A DNA stretch of 35,912 bases from a virus. Location: IMG/VR virus record IMGVR_UViG_3300043219_000150, positions 1-35,912 of that record; one strand, written 5' to 3'. Position numbers and translations under genes: made by a program. A model generated the notes under the pieces. The model made no database searches. It was not told where the DNA came from and saw only the letters and a list, made by a program, of their open reading frames with translations. This document shows, in pieces, positions 7,013-35,912 of the stretch. Each line of letters starts with the position of its first letter. The first letter of the stretch is position 1.

Positions 7013-7022
7013 AAATTCCTCC

Positions 7023-21442: not shown

Positions 21443-21895
21443 TTAAAAATCTCCCTCTGCAACCTGGAGACATTTAACTCCCAACTCTCTCCATTTTTCA
21501 ACCATTGAATTTCTATCTTCTAAAACAAACTTAATATCTTTGAAATCCACCCTCTGCCTTAATTGATCAATTTTACATAAAGTATCATCCCTAATGTCAT
21601 TGTTAGGTCTCATAATTAACCCTTTGTATTTAAAGGTTTTATAGAAATGTTTTGCAATCCACAACTCTGTAGCAGGTCTACAAGACTCTCTTCTCCCAGT
21701 ACAAAACACAATAATATGTTTTGGGTCACATTCTAAACATTCCACCAGGTCGATAATTTCATTAATTGGTTCATCATCAAAACAAGAATCATAAAATGCA
21801 TCCCAATCTTTGGGAGACTCTTTTAAATACTTAAGCCTATCTCCAACCTTTGAAATAGTTCCATCAATATCAACTATGATATATTTCTTCACCAT
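21443..21895 (-). CDS. HAD polynucleotide 3'-phosphatase-like protein
   Basis: A 150-aa HAD-fold protein. Motif I is IIVDIDGTIS (D9, D11), motif II lies in IIVFCTGRRESCRPATELWI, and motif III is near KFVLEDRNSMVEKWRE. The CTGR...R and WL/I helix pattern is that of the 3'-phosphatase domain of T4 polynucleotide kinase (Pnkp/PseT). Only the phosphatase is present; no kinase domain. It could clean 3'-phosphate or 2',3'-cyclic ends left by host nucleases or RNase toxins. The start shares one base with the stop of the 42-aa membrane gene (TAATG). Confidence 0.72.
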   Translation of the reverse strand: MVKKYIIVDIDGTISKVGDRLKYLKESPKDWDAFYDSCFDDEPINEIIDLVECLECDPKHIIVFCTGRRESCRPATELWIAKHFYKTFKYKGLIMRPNNDIRDDTLCKIDQLRQRVDFKDIKFVLEDRNSMVEKWRELGVKCLQVAEGDF

Positions 21896-22205: not shown

Positions 22206-22324
22206 CCCTCACCCTCCAGAGTAACAGTTGTTTTATAATGCTTATCTACATAGTTATCAAATGCAGCATTAAGCCCAATAAATATTACTATAATTAAAAT
22301 AACAATCAGAGTTTTCTTTTTCAT
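22202..22324 (-). CDS. 40-aa single-pass membrane protein
   Basis: MKKKTLIVILIIVIFIGLNA forms a positively charged start and one transmembrane helix, then a short polar tail ending TLEGEG. Its ATG overlaps the preceding stop (ATGA), and its stop overlaps the next ATG. Start choice is supported by the overlaps, not by a ribosome site. Confidence 0.5.
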   Translation of the reverse strand: MKKKTLIVILIIVIFIGLNAAFDNYVDKHYKTTVTLEGEG

Positions 22325-22794
22325 TTAGAATTCCAATTACTAAACTCAATACAGTTATGACAGGTATCTTCCCCATTCTCATCTGGGTCCAGTTCATACT
22401 TACAGTTACCGCAATCATTAGGACATAAATGTACAGGGATAACAGTACAACCAAAATCTTTCATTTCCCAGTTAACCATATGAGATCCAAGTTTGAATAT
22501 TTTCCCGGTAGTAGCTTCTTGTACTACAGTTCCTACACATTCCTCAGAGAAGAGAACAACCATTCCATTATCTGTTTTTCTTATTGTTGGATATTTTAAC
22601 CCCTTATTGTCTGTAAAGTTTTTACAGGACCTAACACCAGGCTTCCAGTTATCTGGAGTACATCTATCTGTACAATCTTTCTTGTTACAGTTAATACATA
22701 TGTTTTCTTTTGGAGTTAACACCAAAACACTTAAACAATCATTACAGAGCATATTACCATCTATAATTATTTTCTCACCACATAAACAATTCAT
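22321..22794 (-). CDS. Cys-rich protein with two zinc-ribbon-like parts (157 aa)
   Basis: Start at 22794 (MNCLCGEK), which has AAGGGA five bases upstream. The N-terminal part carries CLCGEK...CNDC and CINCNKKDCTDRC; the C-terminal part repeats the arrangement CPNDCGNC...CHNCIEFSNW. The CGNC-x-C-x2-C-F-W pattern is seen again in the gene at 34794-35120. It probably binds zinc. The gene is the first after promoter 22829-22857. Confidence 0.6.
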   Translation of the reverse strand: MNCLCGEKIIIDGNMLCNDCLSVLVLTPKENICINCNKKDCTDRCTPDNWKPGVRSCKNFTDNKGLKYPTIRKTDNGMVVLFSEECVGTVVQEATTGKIFKLGSHMVNWEMKDFGCTVIPVHLCPNDCGNCKYELDPDENGEDTCHNCIEFSNWNSK

Positions 22795-22828: not shown

Positions 22829-22857
22829 ATATTAAACCCAATGTGTTTAAAGGTCAA
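22829..22857 (-). promoter_or_regulatory. Leftward promoter with shared operator element
   Basis: On the minus strand TTGACC (22857-22852), 17-bp spacer, TAATAT (22834-22829). The spacer and -10 hold the palindrome-like element TTAAACCCAATGTGTTTAA (plus strand, 22832-22850). The same element lies inside three other leftward promoters. It would drive the Cys-rich gene at 22321-22794 and those after it. Confidence 0.8.
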
Positions 22858-22869
22858 GAGTTAACGGGT

Positions 22870-24036
22870 TTATTTTAGTCCTTGTAATATATGTACAATA
22901 ACTTGTATTGTCCATCCATTACCAAATTGTTTATATAATTGTGATTCTGATACTCCTGAAGATAACATTCTGTCAATAATATCTTCCGGAACAGTTTACA
23001 ATCGTCCACATTCTCGAGGTGTTAATCTTCTTACTTTAAAAGATGATGTTTCAAGTATTACGGTATCTTTTTGAACAGTTGTTAAACAATTACTAATGTC
23101 CGGATCTTTATTGACTTCGAGCATTTGAACAGTTGGCAATCCTGATTCTCTTGATTTTGGGTTATCCGGATTACGACCAGTTATTCTACAGGCTTCAGCT
23201 ACATCTACTTTTATTAAACACTCTTTACCATCATTCCCATATCTTTTAAGAATTGTTTTTGAAATACTATTTCCATCCTCTAAATTATAACCAAAGCCGT
23301 GGCCTCTTTTTTTAGAGTCTAATTGTCTTCTATCTAACCCCTGAATAGCCTTATTAGATAAATAATATTTTTCGTTTACCTGGTCCTCTAGTATATCTCT
23401 CAACCTCAACCCTTTGTTTTTAGGCTGTGAAATACAATTACCAAACAATGTTAATTCAGATCCTTCAATATTAGTCCAATACAATCTTTTCCTTGATTGA
23501 GCCGAAACCAAAGAGCTATTTATTAATACAGCCTCGACACCTAAAGCATCATTTATTACTATATTCCAACCCTTATTCATTTTTACATTTTCTAATAAAA
23601 ATAATACATCCGGGTTATCCACTTTTATTTCTTCTAGGATTCGCATATACTCCCAAAATAAATATGAATACCCTTCAAATTGAAAGTTTTCAGATTTTAA
23701 TATTAAATATTGTTCCAGGGTAATTATTTCTATATTTTCAATAGTGGTCATACCATTACTCTTCCCAGCAAATGAAAAAGATTGGCATGGAGATCCTCCA
23801 ATAAAAAACCCCACTTTACCAATATCAAAAACACCGTTATCAGTAACCAAAACACCATTACTATAATATATATTCCTAACATCCCCCATTTGTATATTCT
23901 GTGGGTATAAATGTTTTTCTATTTTTAACGCATATTTATCAACTTCACTTGAAAAATAGTTTTTATATTTTATACCAGCTGCATCAAGTGAAATATTCCC
24001 TCCCGAATGACCGTTAAATAAACTTACTACATTCAC
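22870..24036 (-). pseudogene. C5 cytosine DNA methyltransferase interrupted by in-frame TAA
   Basis: The reading frame encodes 346 residues up to TAA at 22996-22998, then continues in the same frame for 41 codons to a second TAA at 22870. Motif I is VVSLFNGHSGGNISL, motif IV is GGSPCQSFS (Pro83, Cys84, Gln85), motif VI is LLENV, motif VIII is QSRKR. The part after the stop, TVPEDIIDRML then YKQFGNGWTIQVIVHIL, is the conserved C-terminal motif X region. In relatives the codon after 'ECxRL' is Gln, so CAA to TAA is the simple explanation. Without motif X the enzyme should be inactive, unless the stop is read through or suppressed. Its probable role is to protect phage DNA against restriction; the target sequence is unknown. 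The next start overlaps the preceding gene (ATGA). Confidence 0.82.
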
Positions 24037-24341
24037 TTTATTGGACCCCTTAAATATGATTCTGTTTTTCTATATGTAAAATTCTTCCTACAATCTGGGA
24101 GATTATTTGCATCTCTAAATTTAGCACAGTTTCTTTTTTCTTTACGTGCCATATCATGAACATAACATTCAATACATCCACAATCTTTTACAGATGTAAA
24201 CTTACTATTCCCGTTCCCTAATATTTCATAAAAATCATTACATACTTCATTTTGTTTTGCTTCATCTCTTAGCTGCACACAAAAACTAGAAGCATAACAA
24301 CCGTTAAAAATATGACATTCACCACATATTCTAATACTCAT
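24033..24341 (-). CDS. Cys-rich small protein (102 aa)
   Basis: Start at ATG 24341 (MSIRICGECHIFNGCY), overlapping the preceding stop by four bases. About ten cysteines include CGEC, CGCIEC and NCAKF. The wide spacing of CxxC pairs suggests two zinc sites. Companion of the Cys-rich genes on both sides. No known function. Confidence 0.55.
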   Translation of the reverse strand: MSIRICGECHIFNGCYASSFCVQLRDEAKQNEVCNDFYEILGNGNSKFTSVKDCGCIECYVHDMARKEKRNCAKFRDANNLPDCRKNFTYRKTESYLRGPIK

Positions 24342-24625
24342 ATAACACCACACCTTTTCATGTAATAATCCCTATCTAGATGTTTAGGGAGAATTTTACA
24401 TTTATATTTTACTTCTTGTTTTAGATACTTAGTTAATTCTGGTTCCTGCATAAACCATAAGTTTGGATCCAATATTCCATCAGCTTCGCAAAATGTTCTA
24501 TCTGGTAATACCTGGTATTTAAGTCTGGTACAATAACCATAATTGCTATTAGTCCTAGACCTAAAGGACACACAGGTACTACATTCAAAGATTTTCATTG
24601 TACGAAGATTGAATTTTGTTTTCAT
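24338..24625 (-). CDS. Cys-rich small protein (95 aa)
   Basis: CSTC...YCTRLKY...FCEADG gives a CxxC plus later cysteines, resembling the small zinc-ribbon-like proteins in nearby genes. The rest is Lys/Tyr-rich with a YMKRCGVI end. Start at 24625 overlaps the previous stop (ATGA); an internal start at 24598 is possible but has no ribosome site. Confidence 0.5.
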   Translation of the reverse strand: MKTKFNLRTMKIFECSTCVSFRSRTNSNYGYCTRLKYQVLPDRTFCEADGILDPNLWFMQEPELTKYLKQEVKYKCKILPKHLDRDYYMKRCGVI

Positions 24626-24810
24626 AACTCAGATTTAGCTTTTTCCATAAAAGAGTTAACAATATTTTCAATATCATTTTTATTAGGTTCTTCAGGTTCA
24701 CAATTAGAATGGTATTGATAGTTAGAAATACATTTAGCCATAAGATGTATACACTTATCCATTGCTAAAACTTCCTTTGCATGTTCTACACCTATTTTAT
24801 TTTTTATCAT
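24622..24810 (-). CDS. Small hypothetical protein (62 aa)
   Basis: Start at ATG 24810 (MIKNKIGVEHAKEVL), five bases after GGGGG; upstream starts would be TTG. The body is helical, with MDKCIHLMAKC and a C-terminal EPNKNDIENIVNSFME helix. No domain is recognised. Confidence 0.5.
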   Translation of the reverse strand: MIKNKIGVEHAKEVLAMDKCIHLMAKCISNYQYHSNCEPEEPNKNDIENIVNSFMEKAKSEL

Positions 24811-24973
24811 ACATTCCCCCAATCCCAAGCTCTATATCTTTTATTATAATATGTATTTGAAGAGGCATTCTTTTATCAAATGACACTTTAAATAACAGAT
24901 CTAGCTGCTTATCATACAAAACTCTAACTCTTGCATAGAGTTTATTAATTCTCGTTGTATTATCAACTGGCAC
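24797..24973 (-). CDS. Small hypothetical protein (58 aa, GTG start)
   Basis: GTG at 24973 lies five bases after GGGGG; its frame (PVDNTTRINKLYARV... QIHIIIKDIELGIGG) runs to TAA at 24797 and overlaps the next gene by 14 bases. It contains a helical Arg/Lys-rich first half and a hydrophobic strand QIHIIIKDIEL. It fills a gap that would otherwise be empty. No family. Confidence 0.5.
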   Translation of the reverse strand: MPVDNTTRINKLYARVRVLYDKQLDLLFKVSFDKRMPLQIHIIIKDIELGIGGMYDKK

Positions 24974-24975
24974 AC

Positions 24976-25296
24976 TTACCCCCTATTAGAATAACTTAAT
25001 AATTCTTCAAGGCTGCATACTACATACACCTTGAACCCATCTGCTCTTAACTCTTTATGTATTCGCTTTTGATCGCCTGTAGGTTCTTCACCGGGCTTTT
25101 TAACTTCAATCCAAATAGATATTCCCCTACGCATTGCCAATAAATCAGGGGTCCCTGTTGGATGAAGCCTAACCCCTCCAACTCTTCCAGAGTTCATCCT
25201 GTAAACTCTAAACCCATTTTTTTCTAAATATTTAGTTATTTCCGATTGAATTTCCGTTTCAGTTTTTGGAACTTCTAAACTAATGACTTTCTTCAT
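24976..25296 (-). CDS. VRR-NUC nuclease (Holliday-junction-resolvase-like)
   Basis: A 106-aa protein; start at 25296 (MKKVISLEV) with AAGGA five bases upstream. It has the VRR-NUC form of the PD-(D/E)XK nuclease: 'TETEIQSEITKYLEKNGFRVYRMNSG', then GTPDLLAM (D51) and SIWIEVKKPG (E64, K66). The family includes phage and eukaryotic (FAN1) structure-specific nucleases. Here it would resolve recombination intermediates or trim DNA for packaging, alongside the RuvA-like and Sak4-like proteins. Start and end both abut small genes, so the set is probably one transcript. Confidence 0.82.
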   Translation of the reverse strand: MKKVISLEVPKTETEIQSEITKYLEKNGFRVYRMNSGRVGGVRLHPTGTPDLLAMRRGISIWIEVKKPGEEPTGDQKRIHKELRADGFKVYVVCSLEELLSYSNRG

Positions 25297-25314
25297 ACAC
25301 ATCCTTAAATAAAG

Positions 25315-25342
25315 ATGGCCTCCAATACCAACCAGAGGCCAT
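25315..25342 (-). terminator. Terminator-like hairpin in the leader of the VRR-NUC gene
   Basis: ATGGCCTC (25315-25322) and GAGGCCAT (25335-25342) form an 8-bp stem with a 12-base loop; on the minus strand CTTTATTT follows. It would end transcripts from 25493-25951 or attenuate the nuclease operon. Confidence 0.55.
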
Positions 25343-25454
25343 AACAAATGTCAAAACATGATAAGTTAACTACTCCTATCACATATAAATAATTAAAGAA
25401 CTCAGTGATTAACCAAGTTACTAAAAAAATCTATTCACCATATACATGGCTAAA

Positions 25455-25483
25455 CAGTGTAGGAGAATCGAACTCCTACACTG
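25455..25483 (-). other. Perfect 11-bp hairpin with a tRNA T-loop (minihelix-like)
   Basis: CAGTGTAGGAG (25455-25465) and CTCCTACACTG (25473-25483) enclose a 7-base loop. On the minus strand the loop and its flank read GAGTTCGATTCTC, which fits the T-arm consensus (GTTCGATTC). A stem of 11 bp and a 7-base T-loop equals the acceptor plus T-arm stack of a tRNA. The rest of a tRNA is absent. It starts 10 bases after the stop of the acidic protein gene. It could be a processing or stability element, a packaged tRNA mimic, or a remnant of an att core from a tRNA gene; none is proven. Confidence 0.6.
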
Positions 25484-25492
25484 AATTACTAA

Positions 25493-25951
25493 TTATCCTT
25501 CCTCTGGGAAATCTGTAATATTATCAACCTTAACATCTTCATCGTCAGAATCCTCTTTAATGGTTTCCTCTTCAAGGTTATCATCATCAAAGACCTCATC
25601 TATTGAGGGGTTATCATCCTCAACATCGTTCTGTAAAGGGAGATGAGCGTTTATAACCTCACCTGTAAACTCATCAAGGTATCGATAGTTTACATCAGGA
25701 TCTAATTTACCCTTAATAAGAATAGCCTGGGGATCTCTGTCGAAATCTAATTCATTTTGACCATTAGCACGCTCAATAGAATCATTGTCAAATTTAATCA
25801 TAACTACACAATCCTTATTCTGTGCAGCAGATAACAAACAGTTATCATCAGTTAATGGCATTTCTAGGGTTAATATTATTGATCCACCCTTAGATGCTTG
25901 AGTAGCAAACTTCTTAACACTTGCTACAAATTCAAAACTTTGTTTATTCAT
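25493..25951 (-). CDS. Acidic-tailed protein, SSB-like candidate
   Basis: A 152-aa protein; ATG at 25951 is preferred because AGGAG lies six bases upstream. Residues 1-100 are a compact beta-rich domain (SFEFVASVKKFATQASKGGSI; DCVVMIKF; AILIKGKL); the last 45 are nearly all Asp, Glu, Asn or Ser, ending ITDFPEEG. An acidic tail is a hallmark of phage and bacterial SSB proteins, which interact with recombination partners. Sak4-type systems often contain an SSB. No OB-fold signature is clear by eye, so this is a suggestion from architecture and context. First gene of promoter 25987-26015. Confidence 0.5.
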   Translation of the reverse strand: MNKQSFEFVASVKKFATQASKGGSIILTLEMPLTDDNCLLSAAQNKDCVVMIKFDNDSIERANGQNELDFDRDPQAILIKGKLDPDVNYRYLDEFTGEVINAHLPLQNDVEDDNPSIDEVFDDDNLEEETIKEDSDDEDVKVDNITDFPEEG

Positions 25952-25986
25952 AAACATCTCCTATATAAATTATGTTATTTCTTTAA

Positions 25987-26015
25987 ATATTAAATACATT
26001 GGGTTTAATTGTCAA
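25987..26015 (-). promoter_or_regulatory. Leftward promoter with shared operator element
   Basis: On the minus strand TTGACA (26015-26010), 17-bp spacer, TAATAT (25992-25987). The plus-strand element TTAAATACATTGGGTTTAA (25990-26008) is the counterpart of that at 22832-22850, read in the opposite orientation. Confidence 0.85.
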
Positions 26016-26034
26016 TGTTTTTTATACCTAATTG

Positions 26035-26964
26035 TTAAGTTCTATTGTTTTTGTTTATTCTTCTTGTTTTCCGGTAATCATCTCCGCCGATAAATGTTAC
26101 AAAATCCATCTTGTCATATATTCGGGACATAATAGCCTCACCATGTATTCCAAAATATTCTTGCATTGAGGTTAGAGTTTTAAGGTTAGTTGTAAGAATT
26201 AAAGTTTTATTTGAACGGAACATCTCATCAAAGAGACTAAAAACCCTTTCCTGCACCCACTGAGAAGCCATAGAGAGTTTATCTATATCATCACAGAACA
26301 ATACATCAAACTTTTTTATGCCGCTTACATAGGACCCATCCTTACCGGAATTGATAATATTATCTGTAAAATCTGCCATTGCAATATATTTACACTTCTT
26401 AGTTGTGTTTTCTATGATGGATTTTAATAGACAAATACCGCTTAACGTTTTACCTCTTCCAACATCTCCCATTAATATCAACCCGTTTGATATGAGTTTA
26501 CTCAACCCGGTACCATAAGACATTGATTTTACTCTAAAGAAAGAATTGGTTAATGTTTGATTAACAGAGGAATCCCAGTCAATCCAGTTTGCAGCCTTGT
26601 ATGATTCTGGAATATCAGCAGCACGAAACCTTAAAACAACATTTTCTCTATTTTTGATCTTGTTGTTAAATTCCATCTCACAGCTGCAGGTCAAAATATA
26701 ATATTTCTGGGTGCCTAATATAAAACCACCAAAAACTACATCTTTATTAAACTCTTCCGGGGAACTCTTACATACGGGGCAACTGTTACCATATGCCTCA
26801 CTATCAAAGAATCCTAAATGTTCAGGCTGTTTTCTTCCATTATCAACTGCATGTTCCAAAGGTTCACGCATAGATTTTAAATTCTCTTCATTCCAGTTAT
26901 CTGGTAATTTTTCCCCTTTGTCTGCAAGTTCTTTCATTTTAGAAAACATTTTAAACCCTGACAT
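26035..26964 (-). CDS. DnaC-like replicative helicase loader
   Basis: A 309-aa AAA+ protein. The N-terminal part has a Cys pair CPVC (62-65) and a later CSC (93-95), a possible zinc site; Walker A is GDVGRGKT (166-173), Walker B is VLFCDDID (221-228), a sensor I-like TLILTTNLK and a C-terminal RIYDK...R finger follow. This is the DnaC/IstB-type loader that delivers the host DnaB-like helicase to the phage origin, working with the initiator encoded just upstream. The start follows GGGGG by four bases. Length and order (initiator, loader) match many lambdoid and P22-like replication modules. Confidence 0.85.
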   Translation of the reverse strand: MSGFKMFSKMKELADKGEKLPDNWNEENLKSMREPLEHAVDNGRKQPEHLGFFDSEAYGNSCPVCKSSPEEFNKDVVFGGFILGTQKYYILTCSCEMEFNNKIKNRENVVLRFRAADIPESYKAANWIDWDSSVNQTLTNSFFRVKSMSYGTGLSKLISNGLILMGDVGRGKTLSGICLLKSIIENTTKKCKYIAMADFTDNIINSGKDGSYVSGIKKFDVLFCDDIDKLSMASQWVQERVFSLFDEMFRSNKTLILTTNLKTLTSMQEYFGIHGEAIMSRIYDKMDFVTFIGGDDYRKTRRINKNNRT

Positions 26965-27453
26965 TTATCCCCCTATTAACTGATTCTGTAATTTTGTATC
27001 AATACTAGATCTAACCGGCTTTTTATAATGTTCAGATTCTGCAAGGTATTCCGGGAACTTTTTGGCACTAAAAAGAGTTGAGGGCCTTAAGTATTGTTCC
27101 ATATCAGTTCCTTTCCATCTAAACAATTTGTAATCAACAACCATTTTTAAGTCATCTATACTAAAATCTTCTTTAAGCCTGGCAACAATTATCTTTTCAA
27201 CACTTGTTGTAAACTTAACCCCTCTTGTATTTTTGTAAGAAGGAATCTTTTTTTTCTCAGAATTAAAGTAGTCCAGGACCAGGCTTGCAGACTCTTTATA
27301 TTTACCATCAGCTTTTTTAATTAAATCTTCAGAAGAAACAAAGCCCTCTTTAAAATATCCAAAGGCTGTTTCTTTCTGAAACTCTGAATCAAACTTAAAG
27401 TTTTTGTAAATAGAATCAAACTTTTTTTGTATTTTTTCTATTTGAGACATCAT
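26965..27453 (-). CDS. Replication initiator with Phg_2220_C/DnaD-like C-terminus
   Basis: A 162-aa protein; start at 27453 (MMSQIEK) is a best guess as the ribosome site is weak and the frame overlaps the upstream gene by 38 bases. The N-terminal ~65 residues are charged and helical; the C-terminal ~95 have the conserved pattern 'LDYFNSEKKKIPSYKNTRGVK', 'VEKIIVARLKEDFSIDDLKMVVDYKLFRWKGTDMEQYLRPSTLF' (Phg_2220_C, PF09524). Such proteins bind the origin and the DnaC-like loader. No separate N-terminal HTH is obvious; the gene before it may supply it. Confidence 0.7.
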   Translation of the reverse strand: MMSQIEKIQKKFDSIYKNFKFDSEFQKETAFGYFKEGFVSSEDLIKKADGKYKESASLVLDYFNSEKKKIPSYKNTRGVKFTTSVEKIIVARLKEDFSIDDLKMVVDYKLFRWKGTDMEQYLRPSTLFSAKKFPEYLAESEHYKKPVRSSIDTKLQNQLIGG

Positions 27454-27778
27454 TATCTTTACCCACCAATTTACCCGCATTAGATTTAAGAGTACTAAGA
27501 GCTGCTTTCTGATATGATTCATAAGCCTCAATCATTTTTTTAGATCCATGCTGCAGAACAATGTCTTTAAGGATCATCAAATTTACTCTTTCAGCTATAA
27601 GGTTTCCTAATGTTCTAGAAACAATGACTTTCATTTCATCCTCTGTAACTCCCATTGTTTGACGTTTAGCCCACCAATTAGAATGTTGTAAAAAATCAAC
27701 TGTTTCACTGGTGCTCATTGCAATCTCTACAACTCTAGGACCACAATTAACAATTTCAATCTTTTTTAAACATTTCAT
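27416..27778 (-). CDS. Hypothetical replication-associated protein (120 aa)
   Basis: Start at 27778 (MKCLKKIEI) follows GGGG by nine bases; it overlaps the preceding gene by 23 bases and the next by 38. It has a helical arrangement: HSNWWAKRQTMGVTEDEMKVIVSRTLGNLIAERVN (about 33-70) and a C-terminal basic tail (SNRKNTKKV). The central repeat of helices could be a DNA-binding or oligomerisation domain. No family recognised. Confidence 0.5.
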   Translation of the reverse strand: MKCLKKIEIVNCGPRVVEIAMSTSETVDFLQHSNWWAKRQTMGVTEDEMKVIVSRTLGNLIAERVNLMILKDIVLQHGSKKMIEAYESYQKAALSTLKSNAGKLVGKDNDVSNRKNTKKV

Positions 27779-28109
27779 CAAATTCATCCCCTTTGAATGC
27801 CTTAATAAATATACCCTTGTTGGTATAGAACATCTTAAAATGGGTTAACCCTTCCATGTAATACTTAACCCAGGCCTGTACCAATTGAAATTGTGGGTGC
27901 CTTCCACTTCGGAATACTTGACCCTTTTTTATAAAAGCCCATCCCGGGAAAACTTCTAGTTTTGTGAATAACAAAATACCCTCTTTTTGGAAGACATTTA
28001 ATTTATCCCCAATTTCAAACCCTAAATTTTTACCTGCTACTTTAATCCCCACGTTTGTTTTGTATGTAACTGGGTTTCCTGCAGCTAACATCCTTTGAAT
28101 CACTAACAC
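27756..28109 (-). CDS. Hypothetical protein (117 aa, GTG start)
   Basis: Starts with GTG at 28109 after AGGAG with six bases spacing. It contains an N-terminal beta segment (PVTYKTNVGIKVAGKNLGFEIGDKLNVF) and aromatic/basic patches (WAFIKKGQVFRSGRHPQ; YYMEGLTHFKMFYTNKG). The profile is consistent with a small nucleic-acid-binding domain, but no motif is decisive. It is part of the replication cluster. Confidence 0.5.
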   Translation of the reverse strand: MLVIQRMLAAGNPVTYKTNVGIKVAGKNLGFEIGDKLNVFQKEGILLFTKLEVFPGWAFIKKGQVFRSGRHPQFQLVQAWVKYYMEGLTHFKMFYTNKGIFIKAFKGDEFDEMFKKD

Positions 28110-28128
28110 TATATTCTCCTTTTAATCT

Positions 28129-28419
28129 CTAATGATTATACTTTTCTGGATAAACTTCCTCTTTTGATATCGTATGTTTAATTTTTGCCTTATCAAGCAA
28201 TGATTCTAAATACAAAATCCTTTCTTTTAACTGGTCTTTTTCTACTTCATAATTTCTTAAGTTTTCTAGAACAGTTGCAGATATTCTCTCTGTTACATAA
28301 TCCTTCATGCTCTTTTCTAACTTACTGCTTAAACCTATATACAGTTGGTTTCTCTCTTTAAGAGGAACTAATTGCTTTAAATCGCTGAATGCTTTCATAA
28401 ATGCTTTCATCTTATCCAT
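28129..28419 (-). CDS. Coiled-coil hypothetical protein (96 aa)
   Basis: The first gene after promoter 28456-28483, with GGGGA seven bases before the ATG. Residues ~45-75 form a leucine-rich coiled coil (VLENLRNYEVEKDQLKERILYLESLLDKAK), the N-terminal part is Phe/Lys-rich. Could be a small partner or scaffold for the recombination module. No family recognised. Confidence 0.55.
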   Translation of the reverse strand: MDKMKAFMKAFSDLKQLVPLKERNQLYIGLSSKLEKSMKDYVTERISATVLENLRNYEVEKDQLKERILYLESLLDKAKIKHTISKEEVYPEKYNH

Positions 28420-28455
28420 AATTTAATCCCCATGATAAACCTTTTAATATGTTTA

Positions 28456-28483
28456 ATTATATACAATGGACTTAAACTGTCAA
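28456..28483 (-). promoter_or_regulatory. Leftward promoter with diverged operator element
   Basis: On the minus strand TTGACA (28483-28478), 16-bp spacer, TATAAT (28461-28456), the closest match to consensus in the window. The plus-strand element TTATATACAATGGACTTAA (28457-28475) matches 15 of 19 positions of the copy at 25990-26008. Confidence 0.8.
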
Positions 28484-28501
28484 GCTTAATAAGCTTTATA
28501 T

Positions 28502-29362
28502 TTAAACCCCTTTACTGTGTTTTATTAGAGCCATTTCATATTTAGCCCTTAAATGTGGATATCTTTTTAAGAATATTTCCCACCCGTTTTGATGTTGTAA
28601 CCCAATATGATCTTTATGACATAAGTGAAAATAGTTCCAGGTCTCTTTACTTTCACCACTGTTACCTTTAGAAACTATATGTGCCATTTGACCATTGTAG
28701 TGGAAAGTCCCTGGTCTTAAATACTTTCTGCAAGCTTCACAATAATTAACTCTCTGGCGGTAATCCTTGACGGACTCTCCCTCTCTATAACCATGATCAA
28801 CACCACCAGAAAACCTTATTTTGTTATAGTTGTTCCAGTATTTAACTATGTCCGTAGGATCTGTCATTGTTATGCCCTGCTGGTTAATTTCGTAAAATAC
28901 ACCCTCTATTACTTTGGTACATTCGTAGGTATCCATATCACTAGATCTCTTTGCTATCTTATGATGATGTAATTTCGATTCAATCTTAGGAGCGTATATT
29001 TCTAAAATTTCCTCATAAATTACTTTTTCCCATCCACACTCTTGGTAAGTTTCCAGAGCTAGAACCTCTATTAAGGTCCACAGCAAATTATTTTGACCTA
29101 AACTCCTTTTTTTTGTTTTGGTTCTAATGTCTAGTTCTAACTCAATAGGATCTGAATTATGAATATCATTAAAGTTCTTAGACCAGGCTTCAAACATAGC
29201 TTTATCCTCTGGGGATATCTTTAAAATTAAAAGATTTTTATGAAGTAACATATTCATAGGATTATCTACGGTTGCGGTCCTAAGAGAATCTTTAACTACA
29301 GCAGAGACAGATACCGCTGGAACTAACCTCACAAGACCTTTAAATGTTTTTTGCTTCCCCAT
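28502..29362 (-). CDS. NinB-like N-terminus fused to HNH/zinc-type C-terminal domain
   Basis: A 286-aa protein. About 75-180 resembles the lambda NinB/Orf recombination mediator (KKRSLGQNNLLWTLIEVLALE, followed by helices ending DPTDIVKYWNNYNKIR). About 200-286 is an HNH-like zinc domain: CEACRKY, then 'GQMAHIVSKGNSG', then 'FHLCHKDHIGLQHQNGWEIFL', similar to DUF968-type phage nucleases. The fusion would couple ssDNA binding at forks to a strand-cutting activity. In lambda and P22, NinB-type genes lie in the same middle region. The N-terminal 70 residues have no recognised domain. Start supported by GAGGG. Confidence 0.6.
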   Translation of the reverse strand: MGKQKTFKGLVRLVPAVSVSAVVKDSLRTATVDNPMNMLLHKNLLILKISPEDKAMFEAWSKNFNDIHNSDPIELELDIRTKTKKRSLGQNNLLWTLIEVLALETYQECGWEKVIYEEILEIYAPKIESKLHHHKIAKRSSDMDTYECTKVIEGVFYEINQQGITMTDPTDIVKYWNNYNKIRFSGGVDHGYREGESVKDYRQRVNYCEACRKYLRPGTFHYNGQMAHIVSKGNSGESKETWNYFHLCHKDHIGLQHQNGWEIFLKRYPHLRAKYEMALIKHSKGV

Positions 29363-29373
29363 ATAAACCCTCT

Positions 29374-30213
29374 CTATACTTCTATATCTTTCTTATTCAT
29401 AGCTTCATCCAATTTCTTTTCAGACTTATCTAGTTCAGCAATTGCTGCAGCTTCTTCCTCTGTCATAGTCGAATTGGTATAATCTTTGGATTCATTTTCT
29501 TCATTAAACCCTTTAGGTCTAAGAGCTTTTTTAAAATCTTCCCAACCATGCATTTCTGATATTTCAATAGTCTCCGGAACTCTACCGGTCCTATCTCCTG
29601 AAACATAATTTTCTCCTGCAGCTGGAGTGTGCAAAATTCTCTTTGTTTCTCCATCCTTTGTAACTACTGAAAGATAAGAAATTATCTCAACCATTCCAGG
29701 GATAATAGTTTTAAGTTTGGTTGCAATCATAAGAGAGTAATAGTGTTGATTTTCAAAGGTCTCTACTTCAGCATGAAATACTAAAAGAATATCTTTACCT
29801 GTTGATTTAAGAAATTGAATAAACTTACCCATTTTTGTTTTAACTTCCATCCATCCTGATGTTGTTAAAGTTCCATCATTTTGCCGGTATTTTTCCCCCT
29901 TGATAGAATCACCATTAATAATAAAATCCATTGCCTGGCCTACAGGATCTACAACAATGGTTTGATAATCTTTAACGAATGCAGACATTCCCTTGGATTC
30001 ATTTTTAGAGAACCATTCTTTCATGACAACAACATCACAGTTGATTCCTCTCTCTCCTAGGTACTTAGTACCCTTTTCAAAGTCCATAATTAAAGTATTA
30101 CCAACTTTACTTGTGGAAGCTGCAAAGCTTGTTTTCCCCACCTTAGGCAATCCGTATATTGCCATTACTATTCCATCTTCAGATACAATGTTTTTTGTTT
30201 TTTGTACTTTCAT
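29374..30213 (-). CDS. Sak4-like RecA-fold ATPase (single-strand annealing helper)
   Basis: A 279-aa protein. Walker A GLPKVGKTS (21-29), then LIMDFEKGTKYL, Walker B-type YQTIVVDPV, and later a LLVFHAEVE strand, the layout of AAA_24/Sak4 phage ATPases. The C-terminus is acidic and Glu/Ala-rich. Sak4 proteins work with a phage SSB to stimulate annealing and recombination. The context (NinB-like, candidate SSB, VRR-NUC, RuvA-like) fits a recombination module. Start overlaps the previous stop (TAATG) and follows GGGG. Confidence 0.78.
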   Translation of the reverse strand: MKVQKTKNIVSEDGIVMAIYGLPKVGKTSFAASTSKVGNTLIMDFEKGTKYLGERGINCDVVVMKEWFSKNESKGMSAFVKDYQTIVVDPVGQAMDFIINGDSIKGEKYRQNDGTLTTSGWMEVKTKMGKFIQFLKSTGKDILLVFHAEVETFENQHYYSLMIATKLKTIIPGMVEIISYLSVVTKDGETKRILHTPAAGENYVSGDRTGRVPETIEISEMHGWEDFKKALRPKGFNEENESKDYTNSTMTEEEAAAIAELDKSEKKLDEAMNKKDIEV

Positions 30214-30602
30214 TATTCCCCTGTCTCCATTTGATATATAAATTTTAATGCTAATAATTTTACAGTTGTTATCTCTTTATGGGATGAAGTTACAGCCACT
30301 TGTTTTCCATTAAGAGAGACTAAACAGTCCCATACTTTAGTTTTATGAGAGTAATTCAAGTCAATTTTATATCTTTTAAACTCAAGTAATTCATTAGAGA
30401 AAGTTTGTTCCTGGATATATTTAATTGCATGTTGCATTAAACAATCGAAGGTAAACTCTTTATCTTGTATTCCATCGAGTAAAACTATATTACCATCAGA
30501 AAACCTTACAGCCTCCAATACTCCATACTCGTCATTGTCTTCAGGTTTAATTAACCTACATCCACTATTAAACGCTATCCATCTTACTAAGTCATTTATC
30601 AT
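30213..30602 (-). CDS. Hypothetical first leftward gene (129 aa)
   Basis: Start at 30602 (MINDLVRWIAF) after AAGGGG with six bases spacing. The protein has a basic beginning and a beta-rich middle (DDEYGVLEAVRFSDGNIVLLDG), then HKTKVWDCLVSLNGKQVAVTSSHKEITTVK. No family recognised. As the first gene of the leftward operon, it is expected to be made very early. Confidence 0.55.
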   Translation of the reverse strand: MINDLVRWIAFNSGCRLIKPEDNDEYGVLEAVRFSDGNIVLLDGIQDKEFTFDCLMQHAIKYIQEQTFSNELLEFKRYKIDLNYSHKTKVWDCLVSLNGKQVAVTSSHKEITTVKLLALKFIYQMETGE

Positions 30603-30624
30603 ATATAACCCCTTATTACTTATC

Positions 30625-30653
30625 ATCTTAACCCATTGTGTTTAAGTTTGCAA
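30625..30653 (-). promoter_or_regulatory. Main leftward early promoter with operator element
   Basis: On the minus strand TTGCAA (30653-30648), 17-bp spacer, TAAGAT (30630-30625). The plus-strand element CTTAACCCATTGTGTTTAAG (30627-30646) matches the copies at 22832, 25990 and 28457. A further half-match, ATTGGGTTTATTTAA, at 30681-30695 could be an auxiliary operator. Confidence 0.72.
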
Positions 30654-30716
30654 CATCTTTATATTAGGTACCGCAATCTTATTGGGTTTATTTAACTAAT
30701 TTAAATATTTTATATG

Positions 30717-30746
30717 TTGACAAATAAAGAGTATATAAATTATTAT
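30717..30746 (+). promoter_or_regulatory. Rightward early promoter
   Basis: TTGACA (30717-30722), 18-bp spacer, TATTAT (30741-30746), with a transcript start expected near 30753. It lacks the operator element of the leftward promoters, though an imperfect palindrome TTAAAC...GTTAA (30761-30780) covers the first transcribed bases. It would drive the leader and all genes from 31180 to 35120. Confidence 0.78.
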
Positions 30747-30752
30747 TACGGT

Positions 30753-31179
30753 GTTAGGAATTAAACTACCCTGATGTTAACGACCAGATTGTAATAATAC
30801 AAATATAAGACTTTTGTATGCTTTTATTTAGATTCCTGGTCGTATCTAATAGCCTTGGTAGTTCGAGGGAAAGCATAGAAAGGTCTTTTTTTATTAATTG
30901 ACCTTTCTATTACTCCCTTCTTAATTCCTAATCTCTTTATATCTTGTGGGTGAATACTGTAACAGCAGGGGATATATATACAGAGGTTACTGTGGGACTG
31001 GTTTTAAGCAAGGGTTAAAGTTGATTATTCCCTACCAGAAAATAAGATCAATCGTTCTATTGGCTCCATAGAGTAATGAATGTTTTTTCTCTTGGAGAGA
31101 TTACGTTCATTTTTCACCAAGAGATTTTTATAATTTATAAAAGAAAAAAGATAAAAAGAAAACCTGGGAGGGTAAATGT
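30753..31179 (+). ncRNA. Long structured 5' leader of the rightward operon
   Basis: About 427 bases with no convincing gene. Helices visible by eye: ACGACCAG/CTGGTCGT (30780-30787, 30836-30843) enclosing ATACAAA/TTTGTAT (30797-30803, 30813-30819); ATAGAAAGGTC/GACCTTTCTAT (30875-30885, 30900-30910), 11 bp; CTGGT/ACCAG (30998-31002, 31034-31038) with AGGG/CCCT inside; and the attenuator-like structure at 31075-31130. The first gene has a good GGGAGG ribosome site, so the leader is not needed for simple translation. A role in sensing, antitermination or phage RNA function is inferred. Confidence 0.5.
31075..31130 (+). promoter_or_regulatory. Attenuator-like pair of mutually exclusive hairpins
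   Basis: Form 1: AATGAATGT (31075-31083) pairs with ACGTTCATT (31103-31111), and TCTCT/AGAGA (31088-31092, 31096-31100) closes a 3-base loop inside. Form 2: TCTCTTGG (31088-31095) pairs with CCAAGAGA (31117-31124), followed by TTTTTATAATTT, like a terminator. Both use the same bases, so only one can form. The layout is that of an antiterminator/terminator switch upstream of the first rightward gene. The loop of form 2 is long (21 bases), so its strength is uncertain. Confidence 0.55.
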
Positions 31180-31803
31180 ATGAAAGATTTATTAGGTGAG
31201 GATTTAATGACAGTGAAAGAACTTGCTGAAATATTAAATGTATCCACAGATTTAATTAAAAAACGAATAAGGGAATTATTTAAAAATAAAATGAAACCAG
31301 GTCAAACAACTTATCTTAACGAAGGTGAAGTTACTGCACTGAAATTGAGAATACAAGAAAACAGTCATATAATTACAACTGGTGATGATCGTCACCAGTT
31401 ACCTACAACTAACCTTGAAAAGAAACTTATAATACAACAGGCAATGAATTTCTTAACTGAAGAGGTTGAATCCTTAAAAGCTATAAACCAACAACAAGGG
31501 GAACAATTAACAATACAGGCCCCTCTTGTAGCTCTTGCAGAGGATTGTATAAGAGATACAACAGAACATTACTCTATAACTAATGCCGGTAAACTCTTAG
31601 GGTTATCAAGATCAAAGATATTTTCTTTATTATCAGAAAAAAGATTGCTTACATCTGGTAAAATTCCAACTCAATCAGCTATAGATAGAAAGATAATATC
31701 TATTAGAAATAATGTTGTAGGTGAAAAGAACTATCCCCAGGCCGTAATGACTATGGAGAATATATATAATTTTAAAAGAGTTTATGAGAAGGATTTTAAA
31801 TAG
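31180..31803 (+). CDS. HTH plus KilAC-type regulator (antirepressor-like)
   Basis: A 207-aa protein. Residues ~10-35 form a MerR/excisionase-like HTH (TVKELAEILNVSTDLIKKRIRELF), the middle holds a Gln/Glu-rich helical link (EEVESLKAINQQQGEQLTIQ), and about 113-200 shows the KilAC/ANT pattern (APLVALAEDCIRDTTEHYSITNAGKLLGLSRSKIFSLLSEKRLL...PTQSAID). KilAC proteins (PF03374) occur in phage antirepressors. As the only clear regulator in the window, it is the prime candidate to bind the shared operators or counter a host or phage repressor. A GGGAGG ribosome site lies eight bases upstream. Confidence 0.72.
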   Translation: MKDLLGEDLMTVKELAEILNVSTDLIKKRIRELFKNKMKPGQTTYLNEGEVTALKLRIQENSHIITTGDDRHQLPTTNLEKKLIIQQAMNFLTEEVESLKAINQQQGEQLTIQAPLVALAEDCIRDTTEHYSITNAGKLLGLSRSKIFSLLSEKRLLTSGKIPTQSAIDRKIISIRNNVVGEKNYPQAVMTMENIYNFKRVYEKDFK

Positions 31804-31813
31804 GAGGATGATT

Positions 31814-32044
31814 ATGAACAATAATGATGTGATATTGGTATTTACCGTAACTGATATGTTAACAATGAAAAGTGTTGAAATAAAATTACAGACAAACAAA
31901 TATAACGTAACAATAAGAAAAACCCCTTACTTATTAACAGGAAGAGTTTTGTCTGAATATACAAAAAAAACAGGGATAAGCACGAATAACGGTAGACCTT
32001 CTGTTAATTTTGAAGGTGAGATAATAAAATTATCAAAGGAATAA
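31814..32044 (+). CDS. Hypothetical small protein (76 aa)
   Basis: ATG at 31814 is preferred because GGAGG lies six bases upstream; longer forms overlap the regulator gene. The body is a beta-rich basic protein (VFTVTDMLTMKSVEIKLQTNKYNVTI; RPSVNFEGEIIKLSKE). No family. It is translated right after the regulator. Confidence 0.5.
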   Translation: MNNNDVILVFTVTDMLTMKSVEIKLQTNKYNVTIRKTPYLLTGRVLSEYTKKTGISTNNGRPSVNFEGEIIKLSKE

Positions 32045-32045
32045 C

Positions 32046-32216
32046 ATGAAATACAAAATAACAATGCAATCAGGTAAAGAATATATATCATGGCTACAAA
32101 TAGATAGAGCTTCTTTTAATATGTATATGGGTGAAAATAAGATTATCAATTTACCTGATGGAGATATAACTATAAATCTGAAGTATGTAGAATCAATTGA
32201 AGAGGTTAAATTATGA
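32046..32216 (+). CDS. Small hypothetical protein (56 aa)
   Basis: ATG at 32046, stop overlapping the next ATG (ATGA at 32213-32216). It encodes MKYKITMQSGKEYISW and a charged middle and ends LKYVESIEEVKL, with no cysteine. It fits exactly between its neighbours, with coupled starts. Ribosome site AAAGGA lies eight bases upstream. Confidence 0.55.
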   Translation: MKYKITMQSGKEYISWLQIDRASFNMYMGENKIINLPDGDITINLKYVESIEEVKL

Positions 32217-32521
32217 CTAAAAATACACATAGAGGGCATAATATGATATTTGTAAATGATATATGGATTTATGAAGATACTAAGGCCCCAGTATCAGAGG
32301 ACAAAGATAGGCCTTGTGGCAATTGCTGTAGACCCAACTTACAAACCGGACACGATGCATGTTTAGGTACTTTACCTGGTTTAATGAATGCTTGTTGTGG
32401 TCATGGGGATATTAAAAAAACATTTATACAGTTTTTAGATGGGGTTATTGTCAGAGGTAGTTATGCTAAAATTATTATTGGTATTTTAAAAGTTACAAAC
32501 CAAGGGAGTGAATCTATATGA
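32213..32521 (+). CDS. Cys-rich phage protein of unknown function (102 aa)
   Basis: Contains CGNCCRP and 'GHDACLGTLPGLMNACCGHG', a conserved phrase in many phage proteins of unknown role. The Cys/His set (C-x2-C-C; C; C-C-x-H) suggests metal binding. The C-terminal half is hydrophobic beta (KTFIQFLDGVIVRGSYAKIIIGIL). GAGG precedes the start. Confidence 0.6.
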   Translation: MTKNTHRGHNMIFVNDIWIYEDTKAPVSEDKDRPCGNCCRPNLQTGHDACLGTLPGLMNACCGHGDIKKTFIQFLDGVIVRGSYAKIIIGILKVTNQGSESI

Positions 32522-33084
32522 TGACAGATATAACAGGTAAAAGATTAAAGGATTGTGACATTATTGATATCCACCAAACTGTTAATGGTGTGAATACATT
32601 TTTAATATGTGTTAGAAATGACAAAGTTGTAAACATTAAATACTGGATTGATAATAGTATCTGGAGAGATTACGAATACAACCAGGATGAACTATTAGAG
32701 CCTGGGAGATATTCTGGAGTCTCTGAGTTTACAATTATTGATAATGCTAAAAATCATCCAGTTAAATTTTATGAACATCCTTTAGAGTCTAAAAAAGAAA
32801 CAAAAGACGATTATCAAGCTTTCAAAGAGGTAATGGAGAGTAATCATATAGAACAAATGAAAAATATAAACCCTCCACATAAATCAACTCCTATAACAGA
32901 TAAAGAGATTGAAGAAACCAAAGAGATATTAAGACGTATAGCTGTAAGGCAATTTACATCTCCTAATATTGTTAAATGGATCAATAAAGGGTTAGAGATT
33001 ATTGTAATGCTGCAGGTAGAAAACGGTTTACTTAATAAACAGGTTAAATTCTATAAAGATAAGGAGAGTAATAAAAATGTATGA
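32518..33084 (+). CDS. Hypothetical protein (188 aa)
   Basis: An N-terminal ~70-residue beta domain (CDIIDIHQTVNGVNTFLICVRNDKVVNIKYW) is followed by a charged helical C-terminal half (EIEETKEILRRIAVRQF, KGLEIIVMLQVENGLLNKQV). The start overlaps the previous stop (ATGA). No known family. Its last codons overlap the ribosome site and start of the RuvA-like gene. Confidence 0.55.
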   Translation: MMTDITGKRLKDCDIIDIHQTVNGVNTFLICVRNDKVVNIKYWIDNSIWRDYEYNQDELLEPGRYSGVSEFTIIDNAKNHPVKFYEHPLESKKETKDDYQAFKEVMESNHIEQMKNINPPHKSTPITDKEIEETKEILRRIAVRQFTSPNIVKWINKGLEIIVMLQVENGLLNKQVKFYKDKESNKNV

Positions 33085-33469
33085 TTCTATAACAGGTATA
33101 GCTACATATAAAAGAAAAGATCATGTAGTTATTGAGAATGCAGGTATTGGATATAAAATATTTTGTTCACTACAAACCAGAAATGAGGTTAAAAAGGTTA
33201 ATCAGCATACAAAACTATATATTTCTGTTGAACATAATGAAAAAGAGATAAGTCTATATGGCTTCTATACGACCGCTGAGAGAGATATGTTTGTATCATT
33301 GATAAATGTACCAGGGTTAGGTAACAAAATAGCTATGTTGGTGCTTAGTTACTTCACAGTGGACTTTTTAAAGTCTGTTATAGAGGGTAGAAAGACATAT
33401 GAACTTATGAAGGTTAAGGGCATTGGTGAAAAGTTTGCCGTTAAGATAATTGCAAAGATTAAATATTAA
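33077..33469 (+). CDS. RuvA-like Holliday junction-binding protein lacking domain III
   Basis: A 130-aa protein aligned with residues 1 to about 133 of bacterial RuvA (about 200 aa). Domain I (OB fold, about 1-62) has 'GYKIFCSLQTRNEV' and 'LYISVEHNEKEISLYGF', the latter carrying an acidic stretch at the pin. Domain II (about 63-130) has both helix-hairpin-helix motifs: 'LINVPGLGNKIAMLVLSYF' and 'KVKGIGEKFAVKIIAKI'. The normal domain III, which binds RuvB, is absent. It could bind or protect junctions without calling the host RuvB motor. Start ATG follows AAGGAGAG. No RuvB or RuvC gene is present in the window. Confidence 0.87.
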   Translation: MYDSITGIATYKRKDHVVIENAGIGYKIFCSLQTRNEVKKVNQHTKLYISVEHNEKEISLYGFYTTAERDMFVSLINVPGLGNKIAMLVLSYFTVDFLKSVIEGRKTYELMKVKGIGEKFAVKIIAKIKY

Positions 33470-33478
33470 GGGGATATT

Positions 33479-33796
33479 ATGAAAAATTTATTTAAACAGT
33501 TTAAAATGGATGTTTTGGTTTTATTAGGGAAATGTCGATGTTCTGGATGGAAAGTTTATCCTACTGGGGAAAAATGTATTGGTTGTGGAGATTGCAAGTC
33601 TAAGCATATGAAGAAAAGAGTCCTCTTCTATTGGGAAGAAGCTATTGGTAATTCCGGTGCATGGACTCCAGTATGTAATTTATCTCTTAAGGATCTTGTA
33701 GATTTTGACGGTCTTGATGATGAAGAGGAACGTGAAGTTCAATTTAAAATGTTTTTCATGACTGATGAAGAGTTGAATTCTCTTCCTGTGGAGTAG
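33479..33796 (+). CDS. Cys-rich hypothetical protein (105 aa)
   Basis: Contains 'CRCSGWK', 'CIGCGDCKSKH' and later a His/Asp/Glu-rich acidic region (FDGLDDEEEREVQF). The Cys pairs are suited to one zinc ribbon. The gene is separated by nine bases from the RuvA-like gene, with GGGG before its ATG. No recognised family. Confidence 0.52.
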   Translation: MKNLFKQFKMDVLVLLGKCRCSGWKVYPTGEKCIGCGDCKSKHMKKRVLFYWEEAIGNSGAWTPVCNLSLKDLVDFDGLDDEEEREVQFKMFFMTDEELNSLPVE

Positions 33797-33800
33797 ATAT

Positions 33801-34040
33801 ATGAAGAAAATAATAATAGTTTTATTGGTTTTAATAACAATGGGATGTTCTAAAATTACGGTTTTGGAAGTCGCGATAAGGGAAGGTGTCAAACAAAACA
33901 CTTACCAAGTTATGTATAAGGTTGAGAGACCTTTAGAAGCCGACTATGTAGGGAGTAGAAGCTTTTATACTACTCTGGGTGTGCATAACTTCTTAACCCA
34001 GGTTGCAGATGTAGACTTATCTGGTTGGGAGCCCCAATGA
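33801..34040 (+). CDS. Predicted lipoprotein (79 aa)
   Basis: The N-terminus MKKIIIVLLVLITMGC is a lipoprotein signal with lipobox LITMGC and Cys16. The mature part has about 63 residues, mixed charge, with 'YQVMYKVERPLEADYVGSRSFY'. Early-expressed phage lipoproteins of this size can block superinfection or alter receptors (for example Cor-type or Llp of T5), which is a plausible but unproven role. GGAG precedes the ATG. Confidence 0.65.
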   Translation: MKKIIIVLLVLITMGCSKITVLEVAIREGVKQNTYQVMYKVERPLEADYVGSRSFYTTLGVHNFLTQVADVDLSGWEPQ

Positions 34041-34321
34041 TTAAGAGATATTTAATAGATCAAAGTTTAAGTGAGGATGAAATTGAAACAACAGATCCTC
34101 TTCATGATGATGCTGCAATGTGTAATTATTCTGATGTTAAACCCCTAATAGACAAAATAGAGGAATTAACTGCAGCACTAATCAAAACTAATCCAAAGTT
34201 TTGTCCAGAGGCTGCAGGATATGAAACAGACTATAAATATAAAAAAGAACATTGTATTGGTGTAGATGTTAAATGTAATGTGTGTTGGAGAATTGCAATT
34301 ACTAAGGGAGTGAAAATATGA
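34037..34321 (+). CDS. Hypothetical protein with C-terminal Cys motif (94 aa)
   Basis: ATG at 34037 is favoured: it overlaps the previous stop (ATGA), and GGGAG lies five bases upstream; the alternative TTG is four codons earlier. The first half is acidic (DQSLSEDEIETTDPLHDDA), the second has FCPEAAG...HCIGVDVKCNVCWR, a CxxC pair. No family recognised. Confidence 0.5.
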   Translation: MIKRYLIDQSLSEDEIETTDPLHDDAAMCNYSDVKPLIDKIEELTAALIKTNPKFCPEAAGYETDYKYKKEHCIGVDVKCNVCWRIAITKGVKI

Positions 34322-34794
34322 GTGATAAAAAACATTTTGTGATTGATTTAATTGAAGATGGATATTTAGATTTTAATTCTTTAGAAGATTTAAAGGATTA
34401 TGTAAATAATATTGATTGTGCTGATGGGTTTCCTATTTTGACAGATGAATACTTTGAAATATATAAGAGTTGTGGTCGGGTGCAAATAAATGTTACTGAC
34501 ACAAAAGAGGAATGCATTTCTAGAGGTGAAGAGTGGGATCATAATTCAGAATGGGTTTATGTGGGTGAGTTAGAAACTGTTATAGACAAGCCTGTTCAAC
34601 TCTCTATAAATGACTTAAGAGTTCAGTTTGAACAAGATACAGAAATTCCTAAAGAAATTATATGGGATGGTGAGGATTACATGTATTACGATGATGATCT
34701 GGATCTTAAAGCAATGCTAGATGAAATTAGAGTTAGGTGGTTTTCGTGGAAACAATGTTGTAGAATATTTAATTTAATCAAGGATGGTAAATAG
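34318..34794 (+). CDS. Acidic hypothetical protein (158 aa)
   Basis: Strongly acidic over much of its length (EDGYLDFNSLEDLKDYVNN; EDYMYYDDDLDLKAMLDE), with a basic aromatic end (VRWFSWKQCCRIFNLIKDGK). Such low-pI early proteins can mimic DNA or bind host factors. Start overlaps the previous stop (ATGA). Function unknown. Confidence 0.52.
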   Translation: MSDKKHFVIDLIEDGYLDFNSLEDLKDYVNNIDCADGFPILTDEYFEIYKSCGRVQINVTDTKEECISRGEEWDHNSEWVYVGELETVIDKPVQLSINDLRVQFEQDTEIPKEIIWDGEDYMYYDDDLDLKAMLDEIRVRWFSWKQCCRIFNLIKDGK

Positions 34795-35830: not shown

Positions 35831-35912
35831 AAAACCCCCCTCCATATATCAATTATATTATATGGATATTCTAATATTTTCAATAATTATTCTATTTCTT
35901 AGACACTAAGTG
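35712..35912. repeat. Right copy of 201-bp terminal direct repeat
   Basis: Same sequence as 1-201 apart from C at 35839 where the left copy has T. On the minus strand this turns GGAGAGGGG into GGAGGGGGG in the ribosome site of the coiled-coil lysis gene. Confidence 0.93.

Follow-up and report, generated by a model that had tools for sequence, protein, structure and literature searches.

What could govern four leftward early promoters of one phage together, when no repressor gene is recognised in its genome? The question is raised by the virus record IMGVR_UViG_3300043219_000150 of IMG/VR, whose entire length of 35,912 nt is the window analysed here. Four leftward promoters of this record, numbered P1 to P4, carry a common element, a 19-bp imperfect palindrome of odd length (TTAAACmCAwTGkGTTTAA). 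The element recurs beyond chance, stands in a fixed register and is confined to these four promoters. It is probably a phage-wide set of operators through which one dimeric regulator would block four early leftward modules.

The original prediction had placed such elements at 22829-22857, 25987-26015, 28456-28483 and 30625-30653, and all four were found at exactly these coordinates. What had been described as an 18-20-bp, partly palindromic sequence in the spacer and -10 region, in either orientation, is resolved as the 19-bp palindrome, which occurs in both orientations. All four promoters are on the minus strand. Scored against a symmetric consensus that was built from these same sites, the operator-like sequence TTAAACACATTGGGTTTAA of P1 (22857-22829; TTGACC-17-TAATAT), at 22850-22832, agrees at 19/19 positions, and TTAAACCCAATGTATTTAA of P2 (26015-25987; TTGACA-17-TAATAT), at 26008-25990 and in the orientation opposite to that of P1, at 18/19. 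P3 (28483-28456; TTGACA-16-TATAAT) is sigma70-like at 12/12 hexamer positions and holds a weaker operator-like sequence, TTAAGTCCATTGTATATAA, at 28475-28457 (15/19). The hexamers of P4 (30653-30625; TTGCAA-17-TAAGAT) are weak, matching sigma70 at 8/12 positions (9/12 in P1), and its TTAAACACAATGGGTTAAG at 30645-30627 reaches 17/19. The palindrome begins 1, 1, 2 and 2 bases past the -35 hexamer in P1, P2, P3 and P4, respectively, and ends within the -10 hexamer, which by position is the placement of a repressor operator that had been proposed. Self-symmetry at the non-central positions amounts to 16/18 in P1, 14/18 in P2 and 12/18 in both P3 and P4, and values of at least 12/18 are found in 1.6% of all 19-mers of the window. 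Every site pairs a TTAAACCCA-like half with a TTAAAyACA-like half. In the direction of the promoter, the CCCA half adjoins the -10 hexamer in P1 and P4 and the -35 hexamer in P2 and P3. P1-P4 look like real promoters, since a start codon preceded by a plausible ribosome site lies a short distance 3' of each.

Several statistical comparisons bear on coincidence. A consensus scan allowing up to 3 mismatches returned 4 matches, against 0.19 expected, and none of 100 shuffled sequences attained 4; this count is partly circular, as the consensus derives from the sites, and one of the four matches (29504-29522) lies inside the sak4-like gene, P3 not being included. The element is commoner than in shuffled sequence, as the original prediction needed it to be. 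In leave-one-out tests with palindromic matrices, which exclude the training sites, P1, P2 and P4 each rank first and P3 ranks third among about 35,900 positions, and the scores of P1, P2 and P4 were seen in 0/60 simulated genomes. The four top matrix hits in the window are P1, P2, P4 and P3, every one of them intergenic. A de novo motif search without a prior, of the kind proposed with the prediction, recovered the element from 15 upstream regions of this genome, the copy in P1 giving the best seed; the best-three sum was reached in 0/200 shuffles and the best-four sum in 1/200. The upstream region of the Cys-rich gene in this set was taken from 22793, one base off the start codon at 22794. 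Among 359 leftward promoter-like places, a match of at least 15 just past the -35 hexamer is found in P1-P4 only. The same motif therefore recurs at several promoters beyond chance. Two further matches, at 29504-29522 (16/19) and 21615-21633 (15/19), lie within genes and were taken as chance.

The recurrence might also reflect coincidence, or one promoter cassette copied by recombination, and the AT-rich genome and the near-chance score of P3 taken alone would suit this explanation. The leave-one-out and shuffle tests speak against it. In addition, the flanks of P1-P4 are dissimilar (4 to 11 of 20 positions identical), and the P1 and P2 sites agree at 18/19 positions only when one of them is inverted, so that the orientation of the site relative to the promoter differs between the two. 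On these grounds simple promoter duplication was ruled out, and the unlike flanks together with the inverted orientation argue that selection acted on the site itself and that the sites were not copied along with their promoters. Coincidence or cassette copying is already disfavoured and must be considered very improbable.

The genes behind these promoters indicate what such a set would control. The record is an essentially complete P22-like genome of about 35.7 kb, because a direct repeat of 201 bp stands at both ends (1-201 and 35712-35912; 200/201 identical, with a single substitution at position 128). The portal, coat, scaffold, head-closure, ejection and terminase proteins either are P22-like themselves or belong to kinds known from P22-like phages, and the nearest annotated portals, from two spring-water phage records, show 55% and 53% identity. 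Intergenic DNA makes up 6.3% of the window. The early modules are encoded on the leftward strand from 30.6 to about 20 kb, with the late genes after them. The predicted P4 transcript (28502-30602, minus strand) comprises orf129 (30213-30602), a Sak4-like AAA protein (29374-30213) and a NinB/Orf-like protein (28502-29362). The predicted P3 transcript (26035-28419, minus strand) comprises the genes at 28129-28419, 27756-28109 and 27416-27787, a replication initiator (26965-27531) and a DnaC-like loader (26035-26964). In the predicted P2 transcript (22874-25957, minus strand), the gene of a 154-aa acidic-tailed protein (25493-25957) is followed by a nuclease gene, Cys-rich genes and a C5 methyltransferase gene, this latter group being separated from the 154-aa gene by a terminator-like hairpin at 25342-25315. 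P1 leads only the gene of a Cys-rich protein of 157 aa (22321-22794, minus strand) and the genes after it. The proposed control of recombination, replication, Cys-rich/methyltransferase and putative anti-defence transcripts thus fits broadly, with recombination behind P4, replication behind P3 and the methyltransferase group behind P2, but the methyltransferase gene lies upstream of P1 and is not led by it. The methyltransferase frame (22874-24036, minus strand) holds an in-frame TAA at 22996-22998, beyond which the frame stays open and encodes a further C-terminal stretch; a true truncation, a sequencing error and recoding are possible readings. As regards the putative anti-defence genes, a PNKP-type phosphatase domain is encoded at 21443-21895. 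The rightward operon spans 31180-35120, and a RuvA-like protein is encoded at 33077-33469 on the plus strand (RuvA_N, E 3.4e-16, plus HHH_5). To our knowledge, a phage-coded RuvA-like protein is unusual in a small phage.

Neither an integrase nor a CI/Cro-like gene was recognised in a PHROGs/Pfam scan of the window proteins, a few very small open reading frames (ORFs) being left out of the scan. This agrees with the impression from the bare sequence that no CI/Cro-like gene is obvious. A CI/Cro-type lysogeny module, consisting of a CI/Cro-like helix-turn-helix (HTH) gene and an integrase, is accordingly not found among the scanned proteins. APSE-1, also a P22-like phage, differs in having annotated repressor, anti-repressor and integrase genes. 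A lytic derivative that has lost its repressor and kept its operators, or that uses them only against superinfecting relatives, would likewise have no recognisable integrase or CI. However, three of the sites are still intact at 17-19 of 19 positions, which suggests present selection, and a relic of this kind seems improbable. Alternatively, a host regulator might read the sites and link the early genes to a host signal. That no CI/Cro-like gene was recognised although the genome is essentially complete is in line with such a regulator, but the phage has its own HTH protein adjoining P4, and the element is not known to match any host regulator box. Phage GIL01, in which LexA of the host takes the part of a dedicated repressor (PMC6182141), offers a precedent. 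Control by the host is nevertheless considered unlikely.

Under the preferred reading, one homodimeric DNA-binding protein would occupy each palindrome and exclude RNA polymerase from P1-P4 together. The recombination, replication and Cys-rich modules, as well as the 154-aa gene and the nuclease/methyltransferase genes grouped with it, would thereby be silenced jointly. A rightward promoter, PR (30717-30746, plus strand; TTGACA-18-TATTAT, 11/12), which has no full operator, would stay open, and a regulator expressed from there could control P1-P4. The outcome would be a shut-off or a lysis-delaying switch. A lysogeny-like state, early shut-off and superinfection protection are candidate states, and shut-off or an unintegrated state is favoured because no integrase was recognised.

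The candidate reader is encoded behind PR. The HTH-KilAC protein (31180-31803, plus strand; 207 aa) appears to combine a winged-helix N-terminus, a long helix and a C-terminal KilAC domain, and it is the only clear HTH regulator recognised in the window. The KilAC domain was identified with PF03374 (E 2.6e-7; 31.4 bits against a cut-off of 25.3), and the match to phrog_63 (E 1.5e-11) assigns the protein to the antirepressor Ant family of PHROGs. An N-terminal HTH_17 match is below the Pfam cut-off. In an AlphaFold2 model based on 4 sequences (mean predicted local distance difference test score, pLDDT, 74.6), the helices and strands of about residues 9-60 have the pattern of a winged helix and are followed by a long helix at 78-125, a putative coiled coil, and by the KilAC domain. 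The first rows of a Foldseek search with this model often show DNA-bound MerR-type regulators, RacA and pSK1 Par. In a second structural comparison, the N-terminal and C-terminal domains both align to MerR-type winged helices. A MerR-like character of the protein is a lead from these models. A MerR-like fold would suit the geometry of the sites, as MerR-type proteins bind palindromes in promoter spacers, and the long helix would be suited to dimerisation. Its MerR-like model, and its standing as the sole clear HTH regulator, make the HTH-KilAC protein the likeliest reader of the element, at slightly less than even confidence. Roi of HK022 is reportedly a KilAC-type DNA-binding protein.

Two other candidates for a reader were rejected. 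The first, an Arc-like gene at 12904-13260 (E 0.019), has a sequence unlike that of a ribbon-helix-helix regulator and is sited among the head genes, and no credible Arc-like gene was found in the window besides this single hit in the structural region. In P22 itself, the operator of the Arc/ant promoter lies inside the promoter spacer, as here, in a P22-type phage, and Arc is a ribbon-helix-helix protein that controls one locus. The second, an AbrB-like protein from 27756-28109, gave a poor model (mean pLDDT 47.8) and no Pfam hit.

The MerR-like model raises the question of activation. The palindrome might be the site of a phage activator, of the middle-promoter type or acting by MerR-like untwisting, that turns on all four promoters at once. 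The shared register in four promoters, the MerR-like model and the weak hexamers of P4 and P1 are consistent with this, but P3 is a perfect sigma70-like promoter that needs no help, and the site overlaps the -10 hexamer. MerR-type proteins bind palindromes as homodimers, classically in long promoter spacers (PMC9938897), and the spacers of P1, P2, P3 and P4, at 17, 17, 16 and 17 bp, do not have the atypical length of classical MerR targets. Such an activator is distinctly unlikely, and repression is more likely than activation by untwisting because the spacers measure only 16-17 bp.

The region between P4 and the HTH-KilAC gene contains further features. A fifth half-copy had been noted near 30681. 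The exact 10-mer TAAACCCAAT does stand at 30681-30690 on the minus strand, upstream of PR and without a full palindrome; the window holds 3 copies of it (P1, P2 and this one) against 0.15 expected, a count noticed after the fact. As a full site, 30673-30691 was rejected at 13/19, a level that chance alone produces at dozens of positions per genome. The element at 30681 might serve as a weak operator or as half of one. A non-coding leader of 430 nt (30750-31180, plus strand) begins at PR, from which the HTH-KilAC gene would be expressed. The initial 185 nt of this leader fold at -60.2 kcal/mol (z -7.0; reverse strand z -6.7) into a three-way junction with a perfect closing stem of 11 bp (30754-30764 with 30921-30931). 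The leader RNA has no match in Rfam at the gathering score, two weak hits remaining below this threshold, and blastn found no match to the leader in phages. Two mutually exclusive hairpins precede the HTH-KilAC gene at 31075-31129 (plus strand). One of them, 31075-31091/31095-31111, belongs to a fold of -19.2 kcal/mol; the other, 31088-31095/31117-31124, is a terminator-like stem followed by five U, and the best fold containing it has -16.6 kcal/mol. Such a pair could control the HTH-KilAC gene, and with it the candidate reader, by attenuation. In a broader proposal, the HTH-KilAC protein would be the MerR-like master regulator of all early modules in a phage without CI/Cro or integrase, its own transcript being gated by the leader with its three-way junction and its terminator/antiterminator pair. 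Taken as a whole, this proposal is rather unlikely; if it were true, KilAC proteins, which are usually termed antirepressors, would be master regulators themselves.

Conservation of the element was sought in related sequences. For the portal, 80 loci, many of them short, were kept out of at least 561 related stretches among at least 600 candidates, and tblastn found none of the early genes of the window in common with these 80 loci. Protein searches with the Sak4-like, DnaC-like and NinB/Orf-like proteins revealed no relatives in viral contigs, and genome contigs likewise yielded none, whether the query was a KilAC alignment or the Sak4-like protein. A scan of IMG/VR with the pattern TTRAACNCANTGNGTTYAA returned 81 stretches, none of which holds more than one exact copy. 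Compared by tblastn with 28 window proteins, these stretches gave one partial methyltransferase match (L023) and nothing else. The matches were taken as chance since, apart from that partial match, the query proteins of the window are not carried by them. A scan with the exact consensus gave 3 stretches, all unrelated to the window. The closest relative of the KilAC protein (L005/G001) shows 57% identity by alignment and 56% by tblastn, and two others show about 30%. In L005 the KilAC relative is the second gene of its operon, behind a small HTH gene, and the divergent gap facing this operon contains TTAAATACAGTGAGGTTAA. The first gene of the operon that faces the KilAC operon in L005 (1650-1880, minus strand) is Tad2-like (Thoeris anti-defence 2-like; 26.5 bits against a cut-off of 25). 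Another locus (L090, 10001-10843, plus strand) encodes a fusion between a KilAC relative and an HNH nuclease domain (ANT, E 5.3e-16; HNH, E 1.2e-10).

Several results weigh against the operator set and its candidate reader. P3 is weak by itself, its score arising 0.35 times per simulated genome, or about 0.0008 times per 80-bp gap. PR lacks a full operator, hence there is no sign of autoregulation, and such repressors are usually autoregulated. Foldseek with the KilAC model gave no match at E <=0.001, and the second structural comparison gave Z of about 5 to 7 (all below 8, within the range that the tool labels common), with IF2 chains on top. No close relative was found, the best portal identity being 60% among the 80 loci kept. 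The hit in the L005 gap (13.97) is the second-best of its record and near the best of shuffled sequence (mean 12.8), and a better hit (14.33) stands elsewhere. In a temperate phage (L091) with an integrase-like ORF at 6217-7494, labelled from its sequence, the KilAC relative, one of the two with about 30% identity, adjoins single-stranded DNA-binding protein (SSB)/replication-type genes, and a separate HTH_3 CI-like gene is present. In phiCDKH01 the KilAC genes have been named as antirepressor genes, and an XRE protein represses them (PMC11172241). The KilAC protein may therefore act on a regulator instead of DNA, and its candidacy is weakened by both the arrangement in L091, apart from the CI-like gene, and the published antirepressor role.

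Phage-wide operators are already known as a kind, and the reader would be the new part. As with SPBRE of the Bacillus subtilis prophage SPbeta, a short motif is repeated at phage promoters and was first seen in silico. SPBRE is a 15-bp motif at dispersed SPbeta promoters that was predicted in silico 24 years ahead of finding its reader, the tyrosine-recombinase-like protein MrpR (PMC10516654). SPBRE has one proven phage-coded reader and belongs to an integrating prophage, whereas here a single reader is inferred, the motif is a 19-bp palindrome within promoter spacers and no integrase was recognised (PMC10516654). Type V-K CRISPR-associated transposons have a MerR-type repressor, CvkR, whose sites are likewise odd palindromes around one central base, in or near the promoter spacers of several mobile-element transcripts. 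For CvkR, a 15-nt palindrome lies mainly inside the 21-nt spacer of one promoter, and at a second promoter, with a 17-nt spacer, it overlaps the transcription start site and part of the -10 hexamer (PMC9938897). The CvkR motif AnnACATnATGTnnT is of another sequence, and the protein considered here has only a weakly MerR-like model and is no established MerR-family member (PMC9938897). The operators and stoperators of cluster A mycobacteriophages also repeat a repressor-type site across the phage genome, but stoperators are 13-bp asymmetric sites to which a monomer binds; they point in the direction of transcription and are present between genes as well (PMC9283540). Here the sites are palindromic, occur in both orientations, and give their four best matches only in P1-P4. 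As in phiCDKH01 of C. difficile, with its KilAC/Ant antirepressor genes, a KilAC protein adjoins a lysis/lysogeny control region; the phiCDKH01 genes are targets of an XRE repressor, whereas no XRE-type gene was recognised here (PMC11172241). The motif was not met among the papers listed by literature searches on KilAC regulators, SPBRE, stoperators, Arc, Roi/HK022 and spacer operators, none of which used the motif's own letters.

Phage-wide operators let one protein choose between lytic expression and silence, and they have usually been found once the repressor was known. Here the sites precede their reader: no repressor is recognisable in the genome, and a KilAC protein is a testable candidate. 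If this protein binds the element, a common class of phage proteins, mostly named antirepressors, would gain a defined DNA target and a mode of action.

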